Shown here: one piece after another, positions 2,880 to 53,249 of the stretch | Position numbering within the stretch: the first letter of the stretch is position 1 | Layout of the letters: each line of letters begins with the position of its first letter | Source of the DNA: Desulfobulbaceae bacterium | GTDB taxonomy: Bacteria; Desulfobacterota; Desulfobulbia; Desulfobulbales; Desulfobulbaceae | Direction of reading: 5' to 3' | Assembly: GCA_011391865.1 (NCBI GenBank) | Contig: JAABPV010000009.1 | Location: 1-53,319 of the forward strand | DNA: 53,319 nt | Translations under genes and position numbers: made by a program | The notes under the pieces: model-generated | What the model was told of the DNA's origin: nothing | What the model saw: the letters and a program-made list of their open reading frames with translations, nothing else | Database searches by the model: none

Positions 2880-4871
2880 ATGGATGCTTATTCTCTGCTT
2901 GCGTTGATGACCAAAGCAAAGCTGATTTTTGAATCACCCGATACCTTTTTAAGTTTCCCAGCACTCTCGCCATTGACTTATTCCCCGGAACAGCTTCAGT
3001 TCAATAAGCCGGGCGGACAGTTCACTGCTGAACTCCTCGCCATGCAGTCAGAATTTTCCAGAATCACCAACTTGGTGCCGCGAGGTGTTCTTGCTCCTGT
3101 TACGCATGAAGAATATCTGTGGGATATTTACAGCGATGTATTGCATACTGCACAGATTGCAAGCAGTACCCTCACTGCCGAAGAGAAATCACGTCTTGCC
3201 GAGGCTGTCAATTTCCTTCATGAAATTTCGCCAAGTGGAAACAGGAAGGAAAGCCAGCAGCTCCAGCTTTATAAAAAATATAGAGATGCTCATATCGCAG
3301 CTCAGGAAGAGTACAAAAATCAGCAGCTGACGGTTGAACTGTCCGGTGACCCAGAAAAAGAAACGCACTGGCGTGATGCAGAAGAGCCTGTGCTGCGACA
3401 GAAAATAGCTCATCTGCTTGATGAATGGCTCCGCGACGGATTTAAAGAAGAAGTGGAACGGTATCAGTTAATTGAACAATCCTATACGGACAGACAGCCA
3501 TCTCTTGTTTGGAGTGAATGGAAAAAATCATTCATGCAAGATATAGATGTTTCCACGGACACCAATCAGATCAACTTTGCAGCAACTGGATTTTCGCCAT
3601 ACAACATATTTGATATAGATAATTGGCCTCGTTTCACCTTGACACAGGCTGAAATTGACAGCCTCGTGGAAAAGGCACCTGTTGAACTGCGCAAAATATT
3701 CGGTTTAAATCTTGCAAGGAACGATATTGAAAATATTTCTTTTGAATACCGATCAGTCGCAATCACAAGGGGATGGTTGCAGCCATCACTTTTCAAGTCG
3801 AGATGCTGGCGGCTCCCGCCAGAGAAAGAGCTACTCTCAACAGGAAATGATTTAGCGTCTGGCCGTTGTCCGGCTTATGTGGCGGCAGTCATCTTTATTC
3901 GGAATGCCAAAGTGAAATATGCTGACCAGAATTCTTTCTCAGCAATGTCTGGCAGCACGCTCTTGAATATTAATTCCTCCGCCCCTGCTGCGCCGCCGCA
4001 ATCCTTGACAATCAAGACTGGACGTTTCACAGTGCGGCAGACGTGGCATGGTGATTTTGATCAAAGCCGGGAGGTTCCTCAAGGGCGAAAAGAAGAGGCA
4101 GATTTTTGGTTCAATGCGCGGAGTGCAAATAATCGTGTTCTGACTCCTATGAATGGCGCGACTTTTGCAGTGCTGCTTGGCGAACCAGAAATGACGGCAA
4201 TGGTTCGGGCTTTGCAGGAACGGCCAGCGCATGAAATTGAGGTGACTCATCTGAAGCCTGGGGTTTGGGTTGCTGTGCGTACTAAAAAAGGTGTTCTTGC
4301 CGCCTTCACTGTTGAGGCTCCGATTGGCCCCAGCACAAACGAGCTGAAGATTCGTTATACTTCTTGGCAGAAGATGATGGACATGTTTGAGTCTGAGGAT
4401 GATCAAGGAACAGCAGGACGTTTCACAGTGCGGCAGACGTGGCATGGTGATTTTGATCAAGGCCGGGAAGTCCCTCGTGGTCAAGGAGAAGAGGCAGATT
4501 TTTGGTTCAATGCGCGGACTGCAAATGATCGTGCGCTTCTTCCTATGAATGGCGCGGCCTTTGCGCTGTTGTCCGGTGAACCGGAACCGGCTGCGATACT
4601 TCTGGCGTTGCAGGAACGGGCCGTCCATGAAATTGACGTGACTCAGCTAAGACCTATGGGGTGGATTGCCGTGCGCACCAAAAGAGGTGCTCTTGCCGCC
4701 TTCACTGTTGAGGCTCCGATTGGCCCCGGCACAAACGAGCTGAAGATTCGTTACCATCGCTGGCAGAAAGAACAGCAAGAAGAGACGGAGCAAGATGTCA
4801 CGATTCTTGCTTTCATTTGCAAACGATTGCCGCTTTGTCCAAATCCAGACCCATCATTGACGTGGCTTTAG
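2880..4871 (+). CDS. Large protein of unknown function with duplicated C-terminal domain
   Basis: 663 residues. The N-terminal ~370 residues resemble the upstream protein in layout (helical region, then the W-L-x-P-S-L-F / C-P-A-Y-x-x-x-V-I-F-I-R-N block). The C-terminal part is two tandem copies of a ~130-residue domain beginning AGRFTVRQTWHGDFDQ and ending TNELKIRY. Each has ADFWFNAR, MNGA, H-E-I-(E/D)-V-T and AAFTVEAPIGP motifs, suggesting a beta-rich module. No Shine-Dalgarno is visible before the ATG, so translation may be coupled or the start may differ. No signal peptide. A structural, toxin-like or secreted role is possible, but nothing proves it. Confidence 0.85.
   Translation: MDAYSLLALMTKAKLIFESPDTFLSFPALSPLTYSPEQLQFNKPGGQFTAELLAMQSEFSRITNLVPRGVLAPVTHEEYLWDIYSDVLHTAQIASSTLTAEEKSRLAEAVNFLHEISPSGNRKESQQLQLYKKYRDAHIAAQEEYKNQQLTVELSGDPEKETHWRDAEEPVLRQKIAHLLDEWLRDGFKEEVERYQLIEQSYTDRQPSLVWSEWKKSFMQDIDVSTDTNQINFAATGFSPYNIFDIDNWPRFTLTQAEIDSLVEKAPVELRKIFGLNLARNDIENISFEYRSVAITRGWLQPSLFKSRCWRLPPEKELLSTGNDLASGRCPAYVAAVIFIRNAKVKYADQNSFSAMSGSTLLNINSSAPAAPPQSLTIKTGRFTVRQTWHGDFDQSREVPQGRKEEADFWFNARSANNRVLTPMNGATFAVLLGEPEMTAMVRALQERPAHEIEVTHLKPGVWVAVRTKKGVLAAFTVEAPIGPSTNELKIRYTSWQKMMDMFESEDDQGTAGRFTVRQTWHGDFDQGREVPRGQGEEADFWFNARTANDRALLPMNGAAFALLSGEPEPAAILLALQERAVHEIDVTQLRPMGWIAVRTKRGALAAFTVEAPIGPGTNELKIRYHRWQKEQQEETEQDVTILAFICKRLPLCPNPDPSLTWL
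4020..4771 (+). repeat. Tandem duplication of a ~132-codon domain
   Basis: Two in-frame copies start at 4020 and 4416 (offset 396 bp). Long stretches are identical at the DNA level, for example around the shared FTVRQTWHGDFDQ and AAFTVEAPIGP segments, while the middles have diverged. This points to an internal duplication that still recombines or is fairly young. Confidence 0.85.
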
Positions 4872-19456: not shown

Positions 19457-20452
19457 TCAGGGCTTGGCGGCCTGCTGCGGCCCGCTGCTGCCAGGCGTGA
19501 GTGGGAAATCGCCTTGCAGGCGGTCCGCCATCATTTTCCGCTGCGTCTCCTGCATTCCGGCCCCGGACAAGGTCTCCCGCATGGTTTCCTCCATGATTTT
19601 CATCATCTTATCATTGATGGAAGATTGAACCTTGGGATCAATCTTTTCAGCTGCTGAAGAAATGGCGGAATTTAGCTGCATTCCGCCGGGCAGGACTGAA
19701 GGCTGCTGCGCCGCCGGATTCAGCCCCAACACGCTCTGCATCTGAAAACGGAGATTCTGCTGCATGGAGGTGGGATCGCCCGGCAGAGAACGGCTGTTCT
19801 GCGGCTGCGGGGTCGGCACCTGAATCTGCGGCATTACGGAAGGCTGGACCGCCTGTTTTGCCGCGCCTTGCTGACCTGCGGCGGAGGGTGCCACCTGCTT
19901 TGCCTGGCCTTGCATCTGCGCTGCTGGAGACGCACCTTGCATTTGCTGGGTCATCTGCCGCATCATCTGCTCCTGCATCTGCTGCTGGATGCCGCTCACA
20001 TCAGGCATTCCCTGCATCTGCTGACCTGCGGCTGACGACGGTGCCGCCTGCTTCGCCGCGCCCTGCATCTGTGCTGCCGGAGAGGCACCTTGCATTTGCT
20101 GGGTCATCTGCCGCATCATCTGCTCCTGCATCTGCTGCTGGATGCCGCTCACGTCAGGCATTCCCTGCATCTGCTGGCTTGCGGCGGGCCGAGCTGCGCC
20201 TTGCATCTGCGCCGCCGGAGAAGCCGCCTGCATTTGCTGGGTCATCTGCCGCATCATCTGCTCCTGCATCTGCTGCTGGATGCCGCTCACGTCAGGCATC
20301 CCCTGCATTTGCCCGCCCAGCGGCTCCGGCATGCCCGCCCCCTGTCCGTTGTCACGCTGCTGCGCTCCTGCTGAACCGGCCAGCAGAAGCAGTCCACAGG
20401 CCGCCGCCCCGATGGCGAATTTGCTTACGGACTGTTTTTTCGGATTGTTCAC
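19457..20452 (-). CDS. Exported Met/Gln-rich repeat protein
   Basis: 331 residues from a GTG at 20452 preceded by AAGGGGAATAAG; the longer upstream reading has no such site. Signal peptide: VNNPKKQSVSKFAIGAAACGLLLLAGSAGAQQ. Three near-identical ~45-residue repeats follow, with cores MQGMPDVSGIQQQMQEQ and MMRQMTQQMQ plus an Ala/Pro linker ASPAAQMQGAA. The tail (MQSVLGLN...INDKMMKIMEETM) is helical. Mature protein is extremely rich in Met and Gln. It is convergent with the Wzz-like gene. No family recognised; copper or silver binding through Met, or an extended surface polymer, are possible. Confidence 0.75.
   Translation of the reverse strand: MNNPKKQSVSKFAIGAAACGLLLLAGSAGAQQRDNGQGAGMPEPLGGQMQGMPDVSGIQQQMQEQMMRQMTQQMQAASPAAQMQGAARPAASQQMQGMPDVSGIQQQMQEQMMRQMTQQMQGASPAAQMQGAAKQAAPSSAAGQQMQGMPDVSGIQQQMQEQMMRQMTQQMQGASPAAQMQGQAKQVAPSAAGQQGAAKQAVQPSVMPQIQVPTPQPQNSRSLPGDPTSMQQNLRFQMQSVLGLNPAAQQPSVLPGGMQLNSAISSAAEKIDPKVQSSINDKMMKIMEETMRETLSGAGMQETQRKMMADRLQGDFPLTPGSSGPQQAAKP
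19900..20320 (-). repeat. Three tandem ~130-bp coding repeats
   Basis: The DNA for the Met/Gln block occurs three times (around 19937-20010, 20092-20166 and 20230-20304 on the plus-strand numbering) with almost no changes, showing recent duplication or ongoing homogenisation. Confidence 0.75.
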
Positions 20453-30077: not shown

Positions 30078-31796
30078 TCACAGCGGCTTGAAGACCGATG
30101 TTTCGGCTTCGAGCTGAAGGATGCGGAATTCCACCCGCATGTTGTCGCGCCATGCCTGCTCGGTCTTAGGCGGGCAGGGATCGTCGCCGCACATGCCGCT
30201 TCTCGGCTTGGCAATGCCGTGGCCGATCACCGCGAACTGGCTTTCATCCAAGGTCACGCCCTTGGCGGCGGCAAAGGTCACAACGCTTTCACGCACCGCG
30301 TTGGCCCGCGAGAGGCTGAGATTCTTAGCCGCCTGCTTGATCTGCCCCAAAGCCATTTCCGTCTCCTGCCGCTTCTTCGCTTGCAGCCAGCCCATCGGGT
30401 CTGAGTGGCCTTCCACAGTGATCACCGCGCCGCCGTAGGTCGAGGCCAGCTCAATAACCTTATTGAATGCGTCGGCGTAAAGGTCAGCCGAGAACTGGTT
30501 CTGGTTGGGCTGGAAAAAGACCTCGAAGGAGAACAGCTCGCCCTCGGCCAAGCGGTCCTGCTGCTGCTTGCGCTGGATCACACCTGCGACCTTGGCGGAA
30601 TCGAACTTTGGAACCGCCGCGTCAGCCACGTTGCTCAGGCCCTCCTTGAGCGCGTCGTAGTTGAACTCAGCCGCAGCCAAAGGCGACTTCCTGCCAAGCA
30701 GGCCGAGCTTGACAAAGGCGTTCTGGGTCTGGTCGCGGAGGTTAAGGAAATTGCGCGGATAATTGGGATCAGTGAAGAACTTGACGTTGCCGGCGAAGCC
30801 GACGAACTCGCAGTCCGCCCGCAGCGACTCCGCGTCGGCGGTCGCGGCAGGACTGTCGAACAGCAGCTGCGCCGAAGCCTTGACCGTCTCGGTGTAGTCC
30901 TTCATCCGGCCAGTCTTGTTCTTGAGCAGCTCGGCCAGCCGCTCCTCGCCTTGCATCAGGCCGTTGACGAACTTCTCCACCTCGGCGCGGCGGCTTTTGA
31001 AATAATCGCTCCGCACCGCATAGACATCGGCGATGACCCGGTTGGCGGTCTTGGTCGAAAGCAGGATCTCCGCGCCTTTGACCGAGCCTTCCGCGCCTGT
31101 GCCCACCGCGCCGCCAGAGGTCAGGGCCATGCCGTCCGGGATGATCATCATCGCCGCATCAATGCCGTCCTCACGGAAGGCATCAGCCGGGGTCTCCGCT
31201 GTGCCGGTCAAATCTTTGACCCACTTGACAGTCACGTCGCTCATGGACAGCCCTGCGTCGGCCAGCACCTTGGCAAGATAGTCAACATGCGGGCCGTAGG
31301 CTTGCAGGGCCACGGTTTTGCCCTTGAGATCCTTGACGGTCTTGATCCCCGGCTTGACCGCGAGGCAGTCGCCACCGTTCGACCAAGTGAGCTGGTAGAT
31401 GACCACCGGCGCGGTGCGCGGGTCACGCCCAAGCACCTCAGAGGCCATGCTCACCATGCCCACGGTGCCGCGCAGATAGGGCGTGTCGCCCTTCAAGTAC
31501 GCCTCGATCTGCTTCTTGAAGTCATCTTCACGCGCCAGATTCAGTTTCAGGCCCTTCTTGCCGAAGATGCTGTCCGGCGCGGTACGGGCGGCGTTGCCGT
31601 TGGCGAAGATGGTTGCCTCGTCGCCGCCCCACGTGATCAGCGGCACCCGGATATGCTCGGCAGGCTTGACCTCCTCGACCGCAGCACTGATGACCTTGGC
31701 CAGCGGCGGCGCGTCCACATACTGCACTGCGCGGGCGGTCGGGCCGGAGAAGAGGAGGAGGAGGAACACCGCGTGAGCAAGCCCTTGTCGTCTCAT
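30078..31796 (-). CDS. Second SBP-OmpA fusion, first gene of the telA operon
   Basis: 572 residues from the ATG preceded by AAGGTG; a GTG three codons earlier is possible. Signal peptide (LAHAVFLLLLFSGPTARA), a phosphate/NMT1-like binding domain (HIRVPLITWGGDEATIFANG, KTVKDLKGKTVALQAYGPHVDYLAKVL), then a C-terminal OmpA-like domain (GGAVITVEGHSDPMGWL, LSLSRANAVRESV, FAVIGHGIAKPRSG). Two Cys near the end (MCGDDPC) may form a disulfide. It shares the design of the 27716 gene but is only distantly similar, so the operon carries two such fusions. Confidence 0.88.
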   Translation of the reverse strand: MRRQGLAHAVFLLLLFSGPTARAVQYVDAPPLAKVISAAVEEVKPAEHIRVPLITWGGDEATIFANGNAARTAPDSIFGKKGLKLNLAREDDFKKQIEAYLKGDTPYLRGTVGMVSMASEVLGRDPRTAPVVIYQLTWSNGGDCLAVKPGIKTVKDLKGKTVALQAYGPHVDYLAKVLADAGLSMSDVTVKWVKDLTGTAETPADAFREDGIDAAMMIIPDGMALTSGGAVGTGAEGSVKGAEILLSTKTANRVIADVYAVRSDYFKSRRAEVEKFVNGLMQGEERLAELLKNKTGRMKDYTETVKASAQLLFDSPAATADAESLRADCEFVGFAGNVKFFTDPNYPRNFLNLRDQTQNAFVKLGLLGRKSPLAAAEFNYDALKEGLSNVADAAVPKFDSAKVAGVIQRKQQQDRLAEGELFSFEVFFQPNQNQFSADLYADAFNKVIELASTYGGAVITVEGHSDPMGWLQAKKRQETEMALGQIKQAAKNLSLSRANAVRESVVTFAAAKGVTLDESQFAVIGHGIAKPRSGMCGDDPCPPKTEQAWRDNMRVEFRILQLEAETSVFKPL

Positions 31797-31933
31797 GGGA
31801 AGCACCTTGTCAAGAATTCAGAGGAAACAGGCGCACCAGCTGCCTGTGCGGGCAGATTCGCATGAAACGCAAATGCTGTCAAGTCTTTTTGCGCAAGAAA
31901 TGAAGTGCGTTGCGCAGGCCGTCGGGATGCTTG

Positions 31934-32121
31934 ACCCGGCAGCGGCGGGTTTACCGTTCCGAAGCGTTCGGGTTACTAATCCCGAAGCGAATTCATCGCC
32001 CGATGAATTGCAAATGGGATACTAATCCCGAAGCGGATTCTACGCCCGATGAATTCCTTTTGGGATGAGTAACCCGCAGAGAATTCATCGCCCGTAGAAT
32101 TGAAAATGGGATTCCCGTCCC
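31934..32121. repeat. Eight or nine palindromes on an exact 23-bp pitch
   Basis: Palindrome centres: 31942 (ACCCG/CGGGT), 31976.5 (GGGTTACTAATCCC), 31999.5 (AATTCATCG-CC-CGATGAATT), 32022.5 (GGGATACTAATCCC), 32045.5, 32068.5 (GGGATGAGTAACCC), 32091.5 and 32114.5. From 31976.5 on, spacing is 23.0 bp each time. Two palindrome types alternate (G-G-G...C-C-C and A-A-T-T-C...G-A-A-T-T), giving a 46-bp superunit at 31970, 32016, 32062 and 32108. Arms vary in compensating ways (GATGAATT vs TAGAATT), keeping symmetry. Confidence 0.85.
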
Positions 32122-32149
32122 GGCTGCGGCGGAACGGGAATCCTTTTTT
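32108..32149 (+). terminator. Intrinsic terminator / last palindrome of the array
   Basis: GGATTCCCGT pairs with ACGGGAATCC across a 15-base loop, followed by six T on the plus strand. On the minus strand the stem is followed by CATTTTC, so it may also stop the short genes read leftward. Its stem is almost the same sequence as the terminator at 33618-33660. Confidence 0.65.
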
Positions 32150-32199: not shown

Positions 32200-32337
32200 C
32201 TACCGGCCTTTCTTGGAAGGGGTCATCGGCTTGGGCGGCGGCGGCGCAACATAGCCTCCGGCCTTGCCTTTTTTCTGTCGGCCAGGCGACGGGGTCGGTC
32301 GCGGCGGCGTTGCTGCGGGCGGTTTTTTCTCGCTCAT
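32200..32337 (-). CDS. Very small Pro/Lys-rich protein
   Basis: 45 residues from an ATG with a strong AAGGAG ribosome binding site (8 bases away). Sequence MSEKKPPAATPPRPTPSP...GYVAPPPPKPMTPSKKGR is disordered and very rich in Pro and Lys. No hydrophobic segment, so it is probably cytoplasmic and could bind nucleic acid or act as a linker peptide. The strong start and absence of any other frame support a real gene. Confidence 0.6.
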   Translation of the reverse strand: MSEKKPPAATPPRPTPSPGRQKKGKAGGYVAPPPPKPMTPSKKGR

Positions 32338-43169: not shown

Positions 43170-43254
43170 CTCCTACCACCATAGGAGGCAATCTCCTACC
43201 CTAATAGGAGCGAGGCTCCTACCTTGGTAGGAGGCTGCTTCCTATTAGGGTAGG
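43170..43254. repeat. Four palindromes on an exact 23-bp pitch
   Basis: Units at 43170, 43193, 43216 and 43239 are built on CTCCTA-CC...-TAGGAG. Palindrome centres are 43178.5, 43201.5, 43224.5 and 43247.5, exactly 23 bp apart. The fourth has swapped arms (CCTATTAGGGTAGG). The array lies 56 bp after hicB. Confidence 0.85.
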
Positions 43255-43337
43255 GTGCTATGAGTCAAGCTGTAACAGGAAGCGATCGGATGTTACGCAC
43301 TGCATCGTCAAAGATTTGCAAGATACTAAAATAATAG

Positions 43338-43838: not shown

Positions 43839-44282
43839 ATGACCACCGTCGCTCTCTACGAAACAGACCTGTACGCTTGGGCCATACGCAATGCCCAGCT
43901 TCTGCGTGAACGATGCGCTGATGAGCTTGATTTTGAACATTTGGCACAGGAAATTGAGAGCGTGGGCGCACGAGAAAAACGGGAGCTGCAAAGCAGATTG
44001 GAAGTGCTGATCGCCCATCTGCTCAAGCTGGGCTATCTCACTGTATTACGGGCGCAGAATGAGCGCGGCTGGAAAGTGACGGTGCGTGAACAGCGGCGGC
44101 GAATTGCGGAGTGTTTGAGCGACAGCCCCAGCTTGCAAACACAGTTGGCAGGCTGCGCGCACCGCGCCTACAGTTATGCGGTTGACAGCATTATCCGACA
44201 GTTCGGCGTGGATGAGTCTGCCCTACCTGCGCAGTGTCCCTACACGCTGGAGCAAATCTTGGACAGCACTTTCTATCCCTGA
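43839..44282 (+). CDS. DUF29 family protein
   Basis: 147 residues from MTTVALYETDLYAW. The DUF29 pattern is clear: YETDLYAWAIRNAQLLRER...DFEHLAQEIESVGAREKRELQSRLEVLIAHLLKL, then the basic W-K-x-T-V-R-E-Q-R-R-R-I and YTLEQILDSTFYP end. The family is common in cyanobacteria and large sulfur bacteria and often lies by toxin-antitoxin genes; its function is unknown. No clear Shine-Dalgarno. Confidence 0.88.
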   Translation: MTTVALYETDLYAWAIRNAQLLRERCADELDFEHLAQEIESVGAREKRELQSRLEVLIAHLLKLGYLTVLRAQNERGWKVTVREQRRRIAECLSDSPSLQTQLAGCAHRAYSYAVDSIIRQFGVDESALPAQCPYTLEQILDSTFYP

Positions 44283-44349
44283 TCTGCAAGAACGCTGCCA
44301 GCAGATGCTGCCGCCTTGCACTCTGCTTCTGTTGTTCCTCAGAAAATAG

Positions 44350-44378
44350 TTGACAACCTGCCTGCCGCGTTTTAAAAA
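44350..44378 (+). promoter_or_regulatory. Promoter of the 44438 gene (duplicated type)
   Basis: TTGACA (44350-44355), 17-bp spacer, TAAAAA (44373-44378). The spacer end (GCGTTT) and the following leader (CATTCCGCTT...CTTCCAC-GGAGAACGAT-ATG) recur at 45681-45768. Confidence 0.65.
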
Positions 44379-44437
44379 GATTGCTGGACATTCCGCTTCC
44401 AGCTTCCCTCCCATCCACCTTCCACCGGAGAACGATT

Positions 44438-44833
44438 ATGCCGACAAAGAAAATGTTCCCTGACATTCCCTTGTCCAACGACTCTGAATCCCCCATCTTG
44501 GACATCAAACCGGAAAGAGACCCGCTGATCGAGAGAATAGTCGCCAGTGTCGCCAAAGAGCGACCGCAGGACAGCGAAGAAGAACTCAGAGCGGTCGCAC
44601 GATATGTCCTGATGTATATTACTCAAAAGGTTATGGAGGGCAACGAAGTGATCTTGGGTGACATACTCCTCCGCCGTAAGCCGGACAAAGACTCGCCTGA
44701 GGCAAAAGGCCCCCGGCCAGGGCAAGAACATCTATTCCATATTGATGTCGAATATACCCCGCCTAAGATTCCCGGCGCAAGCAAGGACAGCTTTCCTATG
44801 TCCCTGCCTCCGAATCTGCTCACAAAACATTAA
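44438..44833 (+). CDS. Small acidic protein of unknown function
   Basis: 131 residues from the ATG behind the GGAGAACGATT site. Acidic N-terminus (DIPLSNDSESPILDIKPERDP), a helical middle (EELRAVARYVLMYITQKVMEGNEVILGDIL), and a Pro-rich C-terminus. No domain recognised. It shares its promoter and leader with the HU-like gene at 45769, which suggests joint control. Confidence 0.7.
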   Translation: MPTKKMFPDIPLSNDSESPILDIKPERDPLIERIVASVAKERPQDSEEELRAVARYVLMYITQKVMEGNEVILGDILLRRKPDKDSPEAKGPRPGQEHLFHIDVEYTPPKIPGASKDSFPMSLPPNLLTKH

Positions 44834-44845
44834 GTTTGCGCATGA

Positions 44846-44863
44846 ACCGTTCCTGCAAACGGT
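44846..44863. terminator. Hairpin after the 44438 gene
   Basis: ACCGTT / AACGGT inverted repeat, extended by CATG on both sides (with one bulge), 12 bases after the stop. No long T run, so termination is uncertain. Confidence 0.45.
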
Positions 44864-44897
44864 CATGATATTCTGTTTTCCGCAGTCCTCCCATCCC

Positions 44898-44952
44898 CCT
44901 TCCACTGGAGAACGATCATGGCAACCATCCAATGGCGGCCCGAAGTCAACGC
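44898..44952 (+). repeat. 55-bp exact duplicate of 45749-45803
   Basis: Covers the ribosome binding site and first twelve codons (MATIQWRPEVNA) of the 45769 gene. The copy breaks off at 44953. Offset 851 bp. Confidence 0.9.
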
Positions 44953-44971
44953 ACAGAACCTGCTTGAATGA
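44918..44971 (+). pseudogene. Remnant of a 45769-type gene
   Basis: ATG followed by MATIQWRPEVNA and then NLLE and a stop after 17 codons. It keeps the intact ribosome binding site, so it may still be translated and couple to the PIN gene whose ATG overlaps its stop (44968/44971). Confidence 0.75.
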
Positions 44972-45447
44972 TGAGCAGAAAATTTGTCTATCTGGAGACC
45001 AGCGTCATCAGCTATCTGGCTGCCCGGCCAAGCAGAAACTTGGTTGTCGCCGCGCATCAGTCCATAACCGAGGAATGGTGGAGACAGAGGAGGAGACGTT
45101 TTCAGGAGGTCATTTCCGAGATAGTGCTTGAGGAGGCGCAGCAGGGCAGCCCAGAAGCGGCCAAGAGGCGCATGGATATTCTCAGCGGCATTCCTTTTAT
45201 CCCTGTTGCGGAAAACAGCTTGCGTCTTGCCGACATATTGGTGCAAAGCGGAGCTGTTCCGGCAAAAGCGGCGCAGGATGCCCTGCATATTGCGGTCTGC
45301 TGCGCAAACAGCATTGATTTCCTGCTGACATGGAATTGCAAACATATTGCCAATGCGGAAAAAAGAGGTCATATTGAAGAGACGGCGCGGCAGAACGGTT
45401 TCACTGCGCCGGTCATCTGCACACCGGAAGAGCTGCTGGGAGAATGA
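44968..45447 (+). CDS. PIN-domain (VapC-like) toxin
   Basis: 159 residues (or one fewer from the second ATG). RKFVYLETSVISYLAARPSRNLVVAAHQ is the N-terminal strand with Glu in place of the usual first Asp, a feature of this PIN subfamily; then EEWWRQRR, SEIVLEEAQQGSPEAAKRR, and KAAQDALHIAVCCANSIDFLLTWNCKHIANA with the later acidic residue, ending in CTPEELL. It is a likely Mg2+-dependent RNase toxin. It is translated from the remnant leader and overlaps the small downstream gene. Confidence 0.88.
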   Translation: MMSRKFVYLETSVISYLAARPSRNLVVAAHQSITEEWWRQRRRRFQEVISEIVLEEAQQGSPEAAKRRMDILSGIPFIPVAENSLRLADILVQSGAVPAKAAQDALHIAVCCANSIDFLLTWNCKHIANAEKRGHIEETARQNGFTAPVICTPEELLGE

Positions 45448-45629
45448 ATATGTTCGATGATCCAATTGTCAGGGAAACACGGAAGACCAGAGAGCGCATG
45501 GCGGCGCAGCATAACTATGATGTGTACAGCTTGGGGCGGCACTACATGGAAAAGCAGCAGCAAGCGCGGCGGGTGTTCATCCATGTTCCTGGCAGAACAG
45601 AACGTCCGCAGCCTGCAACGCAGCCCTGA
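45444..45629 (+). CDS. Small partner protein of the PIN toxin
   Basis: 61 residues (ATG 45450 is an alternative). MFDDPIVRETRKTRERMAAQHNYDVYSLGRHYMEKQQQ is the pattern of short proteins regularly encoded with this PIN subfamily, presumably the antitoxin even though it follows the toxin. Overlaps the toxin stop. Helical, charged, no DNA-binding motif evident. Confidence 0.7.
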   Translation: MNMFDDPIVRETRKTRERMAAQHNYDVYSLGRHYMEKQQQARRVFIHVPGRTERPQPATQP

Positions 45630-45768: not shown

Positions 45769-46845
45769 ATGGCAACCATCCAATGGCGGCCCGAAGTCAA
45801 CGCCCTCACCACGCCCCAGTCCTACCGCGCCCGCGTCCTGCCCAGAAATGTGATTGGCAACGACGAGCTGGCCGCCGAGATCGCGGCGGAGCTGGATGTC
45901 ATCAGCCCGGATGTCGCCCGCTTGGTCATCACCACGGAAAAAAAGCTGATTGCCAAGCACTTGGCCAACGGCGACCAGGTGACGCAGGAGGACGCATTGA
46001 CCTACAGCCTGTCGCTGACCGCCAAATTAGACAGTCCCGACGACCCGCTACCGGACGAGGATGACATGCTGAAGGTGCGCATCTACGCCTCCAAGCCTTT
46101 CATCGCCGAGGTGCGGCAAGGGGCCAAGCTGGAACGCCTGCCTTTAGCCGAGAAGGTGCCGGTGATCGCCTCTGCTGAGGACAACCGGCTCAAACTCGCT
46201 GATGTCCTGTTCGCGCAGGGCGTGCTCAAGCTGACCGGCAGCAATCTCTTCTTTGATGAGACCGAGGAAAGCGGCGAATGCGTGATCGAGGGGACGCAGA
46301 GCGGGAGGACGGTGCAGAACCAGTACGCCATGATCTCCAACTCCGCGATTCTGCTGGTGCCCAATATCCCGGCGCAGGCCCATCCGTGGAACAATGAATA
46401 CACGGTCTCGGTCAGCACGCACTACACCGAGCACGGCACGCCGCGCAGCGGCACCTACCGCCGACGGCTGCGCTCGCCGCTGACTGTGCCCGGCCTCGGC
46501 AGCCCCAATCCGCCAGGTACCGGCATCCTTACGGGCAGCAGTGCCTTCGCGCATGTCAGCATCAACGGCGGCTTGACCAGCGCGGACACCTTGCTGCGCA
46601 TCCAAGTCATCCTCGATCTGCAAGGCGGGCGGCTGCTGTTCTCTTTGCTGGACATGCAGGAAGGCGGCGCGGCAGGCGCAGAGGTGATCGTGCCGCAGAA
46701 CGGGGAATACATTCTGCCGGGCTTTGCCAGTTCTCCTGTGACCAGCGTCGAGATCACCGTGAACAACTACGCCGCTCTGTGGGACATGATCCGCAATGAC
46801 TACGGCGGCAGGCTGGTGGATGTGCTGGATGTGAGGGTGGCGTAG
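45769..46845 (+). CDS. HU-like/DUF4469-type DNA-binding protein
   Basis: 358 residues with GGAGAACGATC before the ATG. MATIQWRPEVNALTTPQSYRARVLPRN plus DVARLVITTEKKLIAKHLANGDQVTQEDALTYSLSLTAKLDSPDDPLP fits the HU-like N-terminal domain of bacterial DUF4469/'DNA-binding domain-containing' proteins, followed by ~230 residues of beta-rich sequence (carboxy-terminal domain). Function is not established for the family; nucleic-acid binding is the likely activity. A helicase fragment starts right after its stop. Confidence 0.75.
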   Translation: MATIQWRPEVNALTTPQSYRARVLPRNVIGNDELAAEIAAELDVISPDVARLVITTEKKLIAKHLANGDQVTQEDALTYSLSLTAKLDSPDDPLPDEDDMLKVRIYASKPFIAEVRQGAKLERLPLAEKVPVIASAEDNRLKLADVLFAQGVLKLTGSNLFFDETEESGECVIEGTQSGRTVQNQYAMISNSAILLVPNIPAQAHPWNNEYTVSVSTHYTEHGTPRSGTYRRRLRSPLTVPGLGSPNPPGTGILTGSSAFAHVSINGGLTSADTLLRIQVILDLQGGRLLFSLLDMQEGGAAGAEVIVPQNGEYILPGFASSPVTSVEITVNNYAALWDMIRNDYGGRLVDVLDVRVA

Positions 46846-52979: not shown

Positions 52980-53249
52980 GTTGTCTTCCTTTTTCCTTGT
53001 GAGTTGATATGGCTGGCGCACACACTATCATGCTGTCAGTGCCATATTGCTATTGTCTTCCAGAAAAAACAAGCAGTTTTCTCATCTGCGCAGTGTTTGG
53101 CCGTGCCGCATTTTGCGAGCAACCATTTGCCCGTCATGTGCGCAACCACTTGCTCATCACACGAGCAAGTGGTTGCTCATAGGAGTTACGCAGTTAGTTT
53201 TTTAACTTGTTGATTTTGTTAAACTGGTGATTTGTAGCACTGCGTGGAT
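52980..53249. other. Intergenic region upstream of the FG-GAP gene
   Basis: Contains the third 23-bp palindrome array. Downstream of it a T-rich stretch with TTGTTGATTTTGTTAA leads to the transposase end. No gene seen. Confidence 0.45.
53117..53185. repeat. Three palindromes on an exact 23-bp pitch
   Basis: GAGCAACCATTTGCCC (53117), GCGCAACCACTTGCTC (53140) and GAGCAAGTGGTTGCTC (53163) have centres at 53124.5, 53147.5 and 53170.5. The arms differ from the other arrays, but the pitch is the same. A weaker unit may precede at 53094. Confidence 0.8.

Follow-up and report, generated by a model that had tools for sequence, protein, structure and literature searches.

HU proteins are usually weakly specific benders of DNA. 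An expansion of paralogs is known in Bacteroidetes for the HU-HIG / BVU_2165-type proteins (PF18291, PF14848, PF14734; PDB 4fmr), and autoregulated parC or iteron arrays provide examples of regularly spaced sites lying beside the gene of the protein that binds them. REP/BIME elements are intergenic, palindromic, clustered and repeated across the genome (PMC3733652). Our search of the literature on palindromic or tandem repeats of cable bacteria, DUF4469 and HU-HIG, with many subscription papers lying outside it, returned nothing relevant, and the arrays reported here are to that extent undescribed.

Here, we analyze a stretch of 53,319 nucleotides (the window) from a Desulfobulbaceae bacterium that is a cable bacterium, Candidatus Electronema. 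It carries arrays of palindromes at a 23-bp pitch and a gene of the HU-HIG family; among named genomes, homologous arrays occur in Candidatus Electronema aureum GS and Desulfobulbaceae UBA5173. Of the genomes compared below, G002 and G003 are of the same genus as the window. The features discussed below are:

30078-31796, minus strand: gene with an NMT1/SsuA-like substrate-binding domain and a weak OmpA-like C-terminus, with the main array upstream of it (start taken from sequence)
31878-31883, minus strand: TTGACA, -35-like, between the main array and the minus-strand gene, with a weak -10 partner (read from sequence)
31922-32122, no strand: main array, nine palindromic 23-bp slots of alternating GGGWTNNNNAWCCC and ATTCWWCGNNCGWWGAAT types, dyads 31930.5-32114.5
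32103-32149, plus strand: terminator-like hairpin and T-run closing the right side of the array, with a counterpart at the orthologous locus of G003
32200-32337, minus strand: 45-aa open reading frame beginning MSEKKPPAATPP, adjoining the array here and in G003:C60
43170-43255, no strand: second 23-bp array, CTCCTACC...TAGGAG, dyads every 11.5 bp
45769-46845, plus strand: predicted HU-HIG and DUF4469-type protein (358 aa) belonging to the host's set of ~35 paralogs, with TTGACA at -88
53116-53185, no strand: third 23-bp array, GAGCAACCACTTGCTC family, an orphan whose counterpart is the array of paralog C71:3527-4585

Longer tandem repeats, apparently within genes, also lie at 4020-4753 (396-bp period) and 19869-20312 (153/138-bp period).

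Geometry of the array and its genome-wide class

The main array has dyad centres at 31930.5, 31953.5, 31976.5, 31999.5, 32022.5, 32045.5, 32068.5, 32091.5 and 32114.5, a constant 23-bp step in which the leftmost two dyads are weak, and it spans ~31922-32122, slightly more than the 31934-32121 marked by the sequence-only reading. The exact spacing claimed there is borne out, with an 8-point lattice score of 39 against a mean of 24 and a maximum of 30.5 in dinucleotide shuffles (n = 1000, all periods from 15 to 35 bp). So is the 46-bp superunit of two alternating palindrome types: the GGG...CCC / ATTC...GAAT alternation runs from 31976.5 on, and TRF returns a 46-bp unit in 3.1 copies at 31970-32112. 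The units diverge and unique spacers are absent, in agreement with the statement that this is not a CRISPR, and the view of the array as constrained DNA rather than a simple tandem repeat is upheld. A tRNA search of the window found none.

That reading had proposed a genome scan for palindromes at this spacing against shuffled sequence, and such a scan supports it decisively. In 453 kb of the host (the window and 20 further stretches), counting as a chain any run of three or more dyads, a spacing of 11.5 bp gave 18 chains, 23 bp gave 14, 34.5 bp gave 8 and 46 bp gave 9; the shuffled sample gave 0 at all four spacings, and most other spacings in the host gave 0-6, usually 0-3. Tandem repeats with a 23- or 46-bp period also stand out in the sample. 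All 30 of the 23-bp arrays called there are intergenic, in a sample that is 88% coding by a simple hexamer model, and they lie mostly between co-directional genes (divergent spacers only 2/27). Dozens of unrelated array sequences share one pitch, and the second and third arrays of the window follow it with sequences unrelated to the main array and dyads every 11.5 bp. Samples from non-cable Desulfobulbales showed no comparable spacing peak.

Two other kinds of repeat were seen. A second class of array has a 21-bp pitch, dyads every 10.5 bp and GATTC/GAATC motifs (L051:16029-16277, L055:13194-13390, L056:1745-2023 and L058:5552-5753, as well as samples of G003, G002, G009 and G042) and also occurs outside Electronema. 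Dispersed palindromes of the GTAGGGGCAATTCATGAATTGCCCCTAC type, a separate repeat family, lie beside the upstream arrays at L161, L166 and L172.

Arrays and the HU-HIG gene family

Several arrays adjoin paralogous genes of ~355 aa whose products combine an HU-type N-terminus with an Ig-like DUF4469 domain (Pfam HU-HIG/HU-DNA_bdg/DUF4469). The L057 paralog matches HU-DNA_bdg at E = 2.2e-6 and HU-HIG at 8.6e-5, and other paralogs match more weakly, all of them below the curated cut-offs; DUF4469 is above cut-off in 4/5 paralogs tested. A profile of 27 paralogs recovered the HU protein 5eka (E = 0.0026) and, over residues 27-223, PDB 4fmr (E = 1.6e-7). No recombinase or nuclease domain was found with Pfam, and a single-sequence AlphaFold model of the window protein was useless (pLDDT 31). 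Counting fragments, the host has 35 matches to the family, four congeners have 18, 15, 32 and 13, and three genomes of genus g14, which belongs to the same family as the host and is probably Ca. Electrothrix, have 20, 15 and 2; 49 other Desulfobulbales genomes have 0. PF14734 was found in 1/395 genomes across the phylum, namely the host, and a search of viral contigs and plasmids returned no relatives. In G003, one HU-HIG match (C1:32000-32932) is part of a 10,983-codon open frame that apparently encodes a giant fusion protein.

A survey upstream of 90 HU-HIG genes in eight genomes shows how closely genes and arrays are coupled. A TTGAC box sits close to position -88 relative to the start codon in almost every one of them, with the array occupying the ~200 bp upstream of the box. 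Identity at a lag of 23 is 0.44 and at a lag of 46 it is 0.41, against 0.25 at other lags, and dyad pairs 11.5 bp apart number 197 versus 1.3 in shuffled sequence. In the host, a strong lag-23/46 repeat falls in the fixed upstream zone of 22/30 HIG genes compared with 26/397 other genes (p = 2.5e-17), and reading the sequences adds several further upstream arrays; in G021, the best lag is 23 or 46 for 14/14 HIG genes. For a small number of HIG genes (L153, L165) no clear upstream array was seen, and for L154 and L155 the array lies 1.1-2.5 kb from the gene. For most paralogs, an array sits beside the promoter of the gene of the candidate binder, as an autoregulatory operator would. The occurrence of arrays follows that of a family of ~35 paralogs, specific to this lineage, with predicted HU-fold and Ig-like domains, and HU-HIG proteins very probably bind the arrays upstream of their own genes. 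A RAYT/Y1 transposase was also considered as a driver of the arrays and set aside: the genome contains one weak Y1_Tnp match (25.9 bits), and the arrays track HU-HIG genes.

The array sequence differs from paralog to paralog and follows the identity of the protein. Between species of one genus, pairs with 70-80% and >80% protein identity share on average 19 and 40 array 8-mers, compared with 3-5 in a control zone further upstream; across genera, the corresponding values are 9 and 18 against 1-2. Pairs below 60% identity have ~1.5 array 8-mers in common. Sharing is predicted better by identity of the HU domain (AUC 0.80) than by that of the C-terminal rest (0.61), with a bootstrap interval of 0.08-0.31 for the difference over pairs that are not independent. 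Residues 11-45 and 91-125 are candidates for the positions that set specificity. That orthologous arrays are conserved over species and genera suggests retained function.

Other arrays stand away from any HU-HIG gene. Among 23 such orphans, 14 match the array of one paralog beyond 50 shuffles, the runner-up usually being near noise, and 9 have no above-chance match to a paralog in the compared set. The main array of the window belongs with the former: it has 42 8-mers in common with the array of paralog G000:C30:15638-16705, where the next best has 10 and the shuffled mean is 5.5. Orthologs of this paralog in G003 (91%) and G004 (76%) both have GGG/ATTC arrays 0.5-1.1 kb upstream, and in host and orthologs alike one or two small genes (in the host, a PIN-domain gene) lie between array and gene. 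In G003, the array has the MSEKKPPAATPP gene on one side and the HU-HIG gene on the other. The window has the small MSEKKPPAATPP gene and the array at a place where the HU-HIG gene is missing, and its array is therefore the positional ortholog of that in G003. On shared 8-mers and position, then, it is an orphan of paralog G000:C30:15638-16705, and its site corresponds to that of the array which Ca. E. aureum, the sister species, carries next to the orthologous gene. The 43170-43255 array is probably that of the HU-HIG gene of the window itself, with small genes intervening.

PIN-domain (toxin-like) and other small genes separate array from HU-HIG gene at window positions 43839-45629 and at L060:14693-15503. 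In the L060 case, there is a TTGACA promoter after the array and another one resembling it ahead of the HU-HIG gene.

A candidate binding mechanism and its alternatives

The sequence-only reading attributed the symmetry of the palindromes to selection on DNA or RNA pairing, which was not borne out. In one comparison, the left and right arms of a unit match each other at 5.82 of 9 positions and arms of different units of one array at 6.22, with a phase choice that slightly favors the cross-unit value; over 12 arrays, with phase chosen on the total, the values are 5.43 and 5.65 and none of the 12 is significant. Own arms matching no better than cross-unit arms, the compensatory base-pair changes of a structured RNA are not seen. 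G-T and A-C mismatches are about equal, without clear strand bias (33 versus 25), unlike in a selected RNA hairpin. Since the arms do not covary, the symmetry looks like that of paired protein half-sites, and the pattern is consistent with half-sites that recur in alternating orientation and serve a putative dimeric DNA-binding protein.

We therefore consider it likely, with a probability of roughly 0.78, that the palindromes are binding arrays for a protein of the HU/IHF superfamily, each HU-HIG dimer occupying the 23-bp units of a private array in an autoregulatory or architectural nucleoprotein. This explanation draws on the constant pitch, the intergenic placement, the linkage to HU-HIG genes, the conservation between orthologs, the one-to-one matching of most orphans to paralogs, the lack of arm covariation and the tracking of the HU domain; we count against it that the part of this domain which varies most corresponds in alignment to helix 2 of HU rather than to the arm that inserts into DNA, that HU proteins tend to be weakly specific, that orphans sit in ordinary operons with no common function or promoter evident, that 9/23 orphans lack a paralog match, and that the arrays of some HIG genes are distant or not clearly seen. 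Each paralog would have palindromic 23-bp units of its own, in a private array that ancestrally lay just upstream of the -35 box of its promoter. A homodimer would bind each unit through its HU domain, presumably one dimer per unit, and successive dimers would pack at 23 bp into a bent, regular nucleoprotein. This could tune the paralog's own promoter directly downstream of the array and may, elsewhere in the chromosome, mark or structure the orphan arrays. More tentatively, ~35 mutually insulated HU-type proteins might provide cable bacteria with a multi-channel "addressing" of DNA, in which private arrays at each protein's own gene and at dispersed sites would specify, in a multicellular bacterium, a combinatorial nucleoid architecture that is sequence-specific.

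Alternatively, HU-HIG proteins could be ordinary specific transcription factors and the orphan arrays operators at their target promoters. The arrays of HIG promoters do lie just upstream of the -35 box, and the main array is ~40-50 bp from the TTGACA preceding the minus-strand gene. Such regulons are nevertheless unlikely: most orphan arrays, which tend to occupy short gaps between genes of ordinary operons, have no recognizable promoter following them, a shared one not being found as a rule, and few arrays of any kind lie in divergent spacers (the 2/27 above). The genes downstream are also unrelated, with no common function evident (ROCO GTPase, pyruvate kinase-like, CutA1, ThiC, MetW, sigma-54 activator, response regulator).

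It is more doubtful still that gene and array form a selfish module whose protein helps its own array to duplicate or spread. The fast expansion of paralogs, confined to cable bacteria, would suit such a module, as would orphan arrays that are common in Electronema and number none in 100 kb of G042; the protein, however, lacks the recombinase or nuclease domain looked for above, and orthologous arrays persist across species and genera. Orphans do turn over, as their absence from these 100 kb indicates together with one intergenic site at which two species carry different array families (L059:17069-17177 in G000, L075:2087-2240 in G002).

This turnover and dispersal, and a placement that is always intergenic and mostly between co-directional genes, would also be expected if the palindromes were REP/BIME-like mobile elements that a Y1 (RAYT) transposase disperses and that have no role in the host, an origin we regard as very improbable given that dozens of unrelated sequences share one pitch and that the arrays are linked to HU-HIG genes and conserved with them between orthologs. 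Inspection by eye revealed no common GTAG/CGTC foot tag across many unrelated arrays. Equally hard to credit is an intergenic transcript that folds into a row of hairpins and has a part in the stability of mRNA or the role of a non-coding RNA: the arrays often lie between co-directional genes, that of the window is closed by a terminator-like hairpin and its single strand folds more stably than shuffles, yet the predicted folds are nested rather than a series of local hairpins, an Rfam search of the window gave no match, arm covariation and a clear G-U strand asymmetry are lacking, and the arrays of HIG genes precede the promoter and are therefore outside the HIG transcript.

Comparison with known systems

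The binding of private arrays by HU-HIG proteins, if correct, suggests a function for DUF4469/HU-HIG, a domain family of unknown role. Through an expansion within one lineage, dozens of HU-type paralogs appear to have acquired DNA codes of their own, all on one fixed ruler, and the natural series of orthologs and paralogs make this putative specificity code directly testable. In these multicellular bacteria, which conduct electricity, it would be a candidate layer of regulation or of chromatin.

HU-HIG / BVU_2165-type proteins share with the cable-bacterial set an N-terminal HU fold with an Ig-like domain after it; the cable-bacterial set is desulfobacterial and linked to specific 23-bp palindromic arrays. 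With the IHF/HU nucleoid proteins it has in common the superfamily and, as predicted, architectural DNA binding, but where IHF/HU use one degenerate or structural site, HU-HIG comprises dozens of paralogs with their own tandem palindromic arrays. The arrays resemble REP/BIME in being intergenic, palindromic, clustered and repeated, and differ in their fixed 23-bp pitch, their many unrelated sequences, their privacy to HU-HIG genes and the lack of a RAYT link. Tandem operator and partition-site arrays likewise have regular sites adjoining the gene of the binder, here putative; in cable bacteria, by contrast, the protein fold is unrelated and one genome, that of the host, appears to hold ~35 parallel, mutually specific pairs of gene and array.
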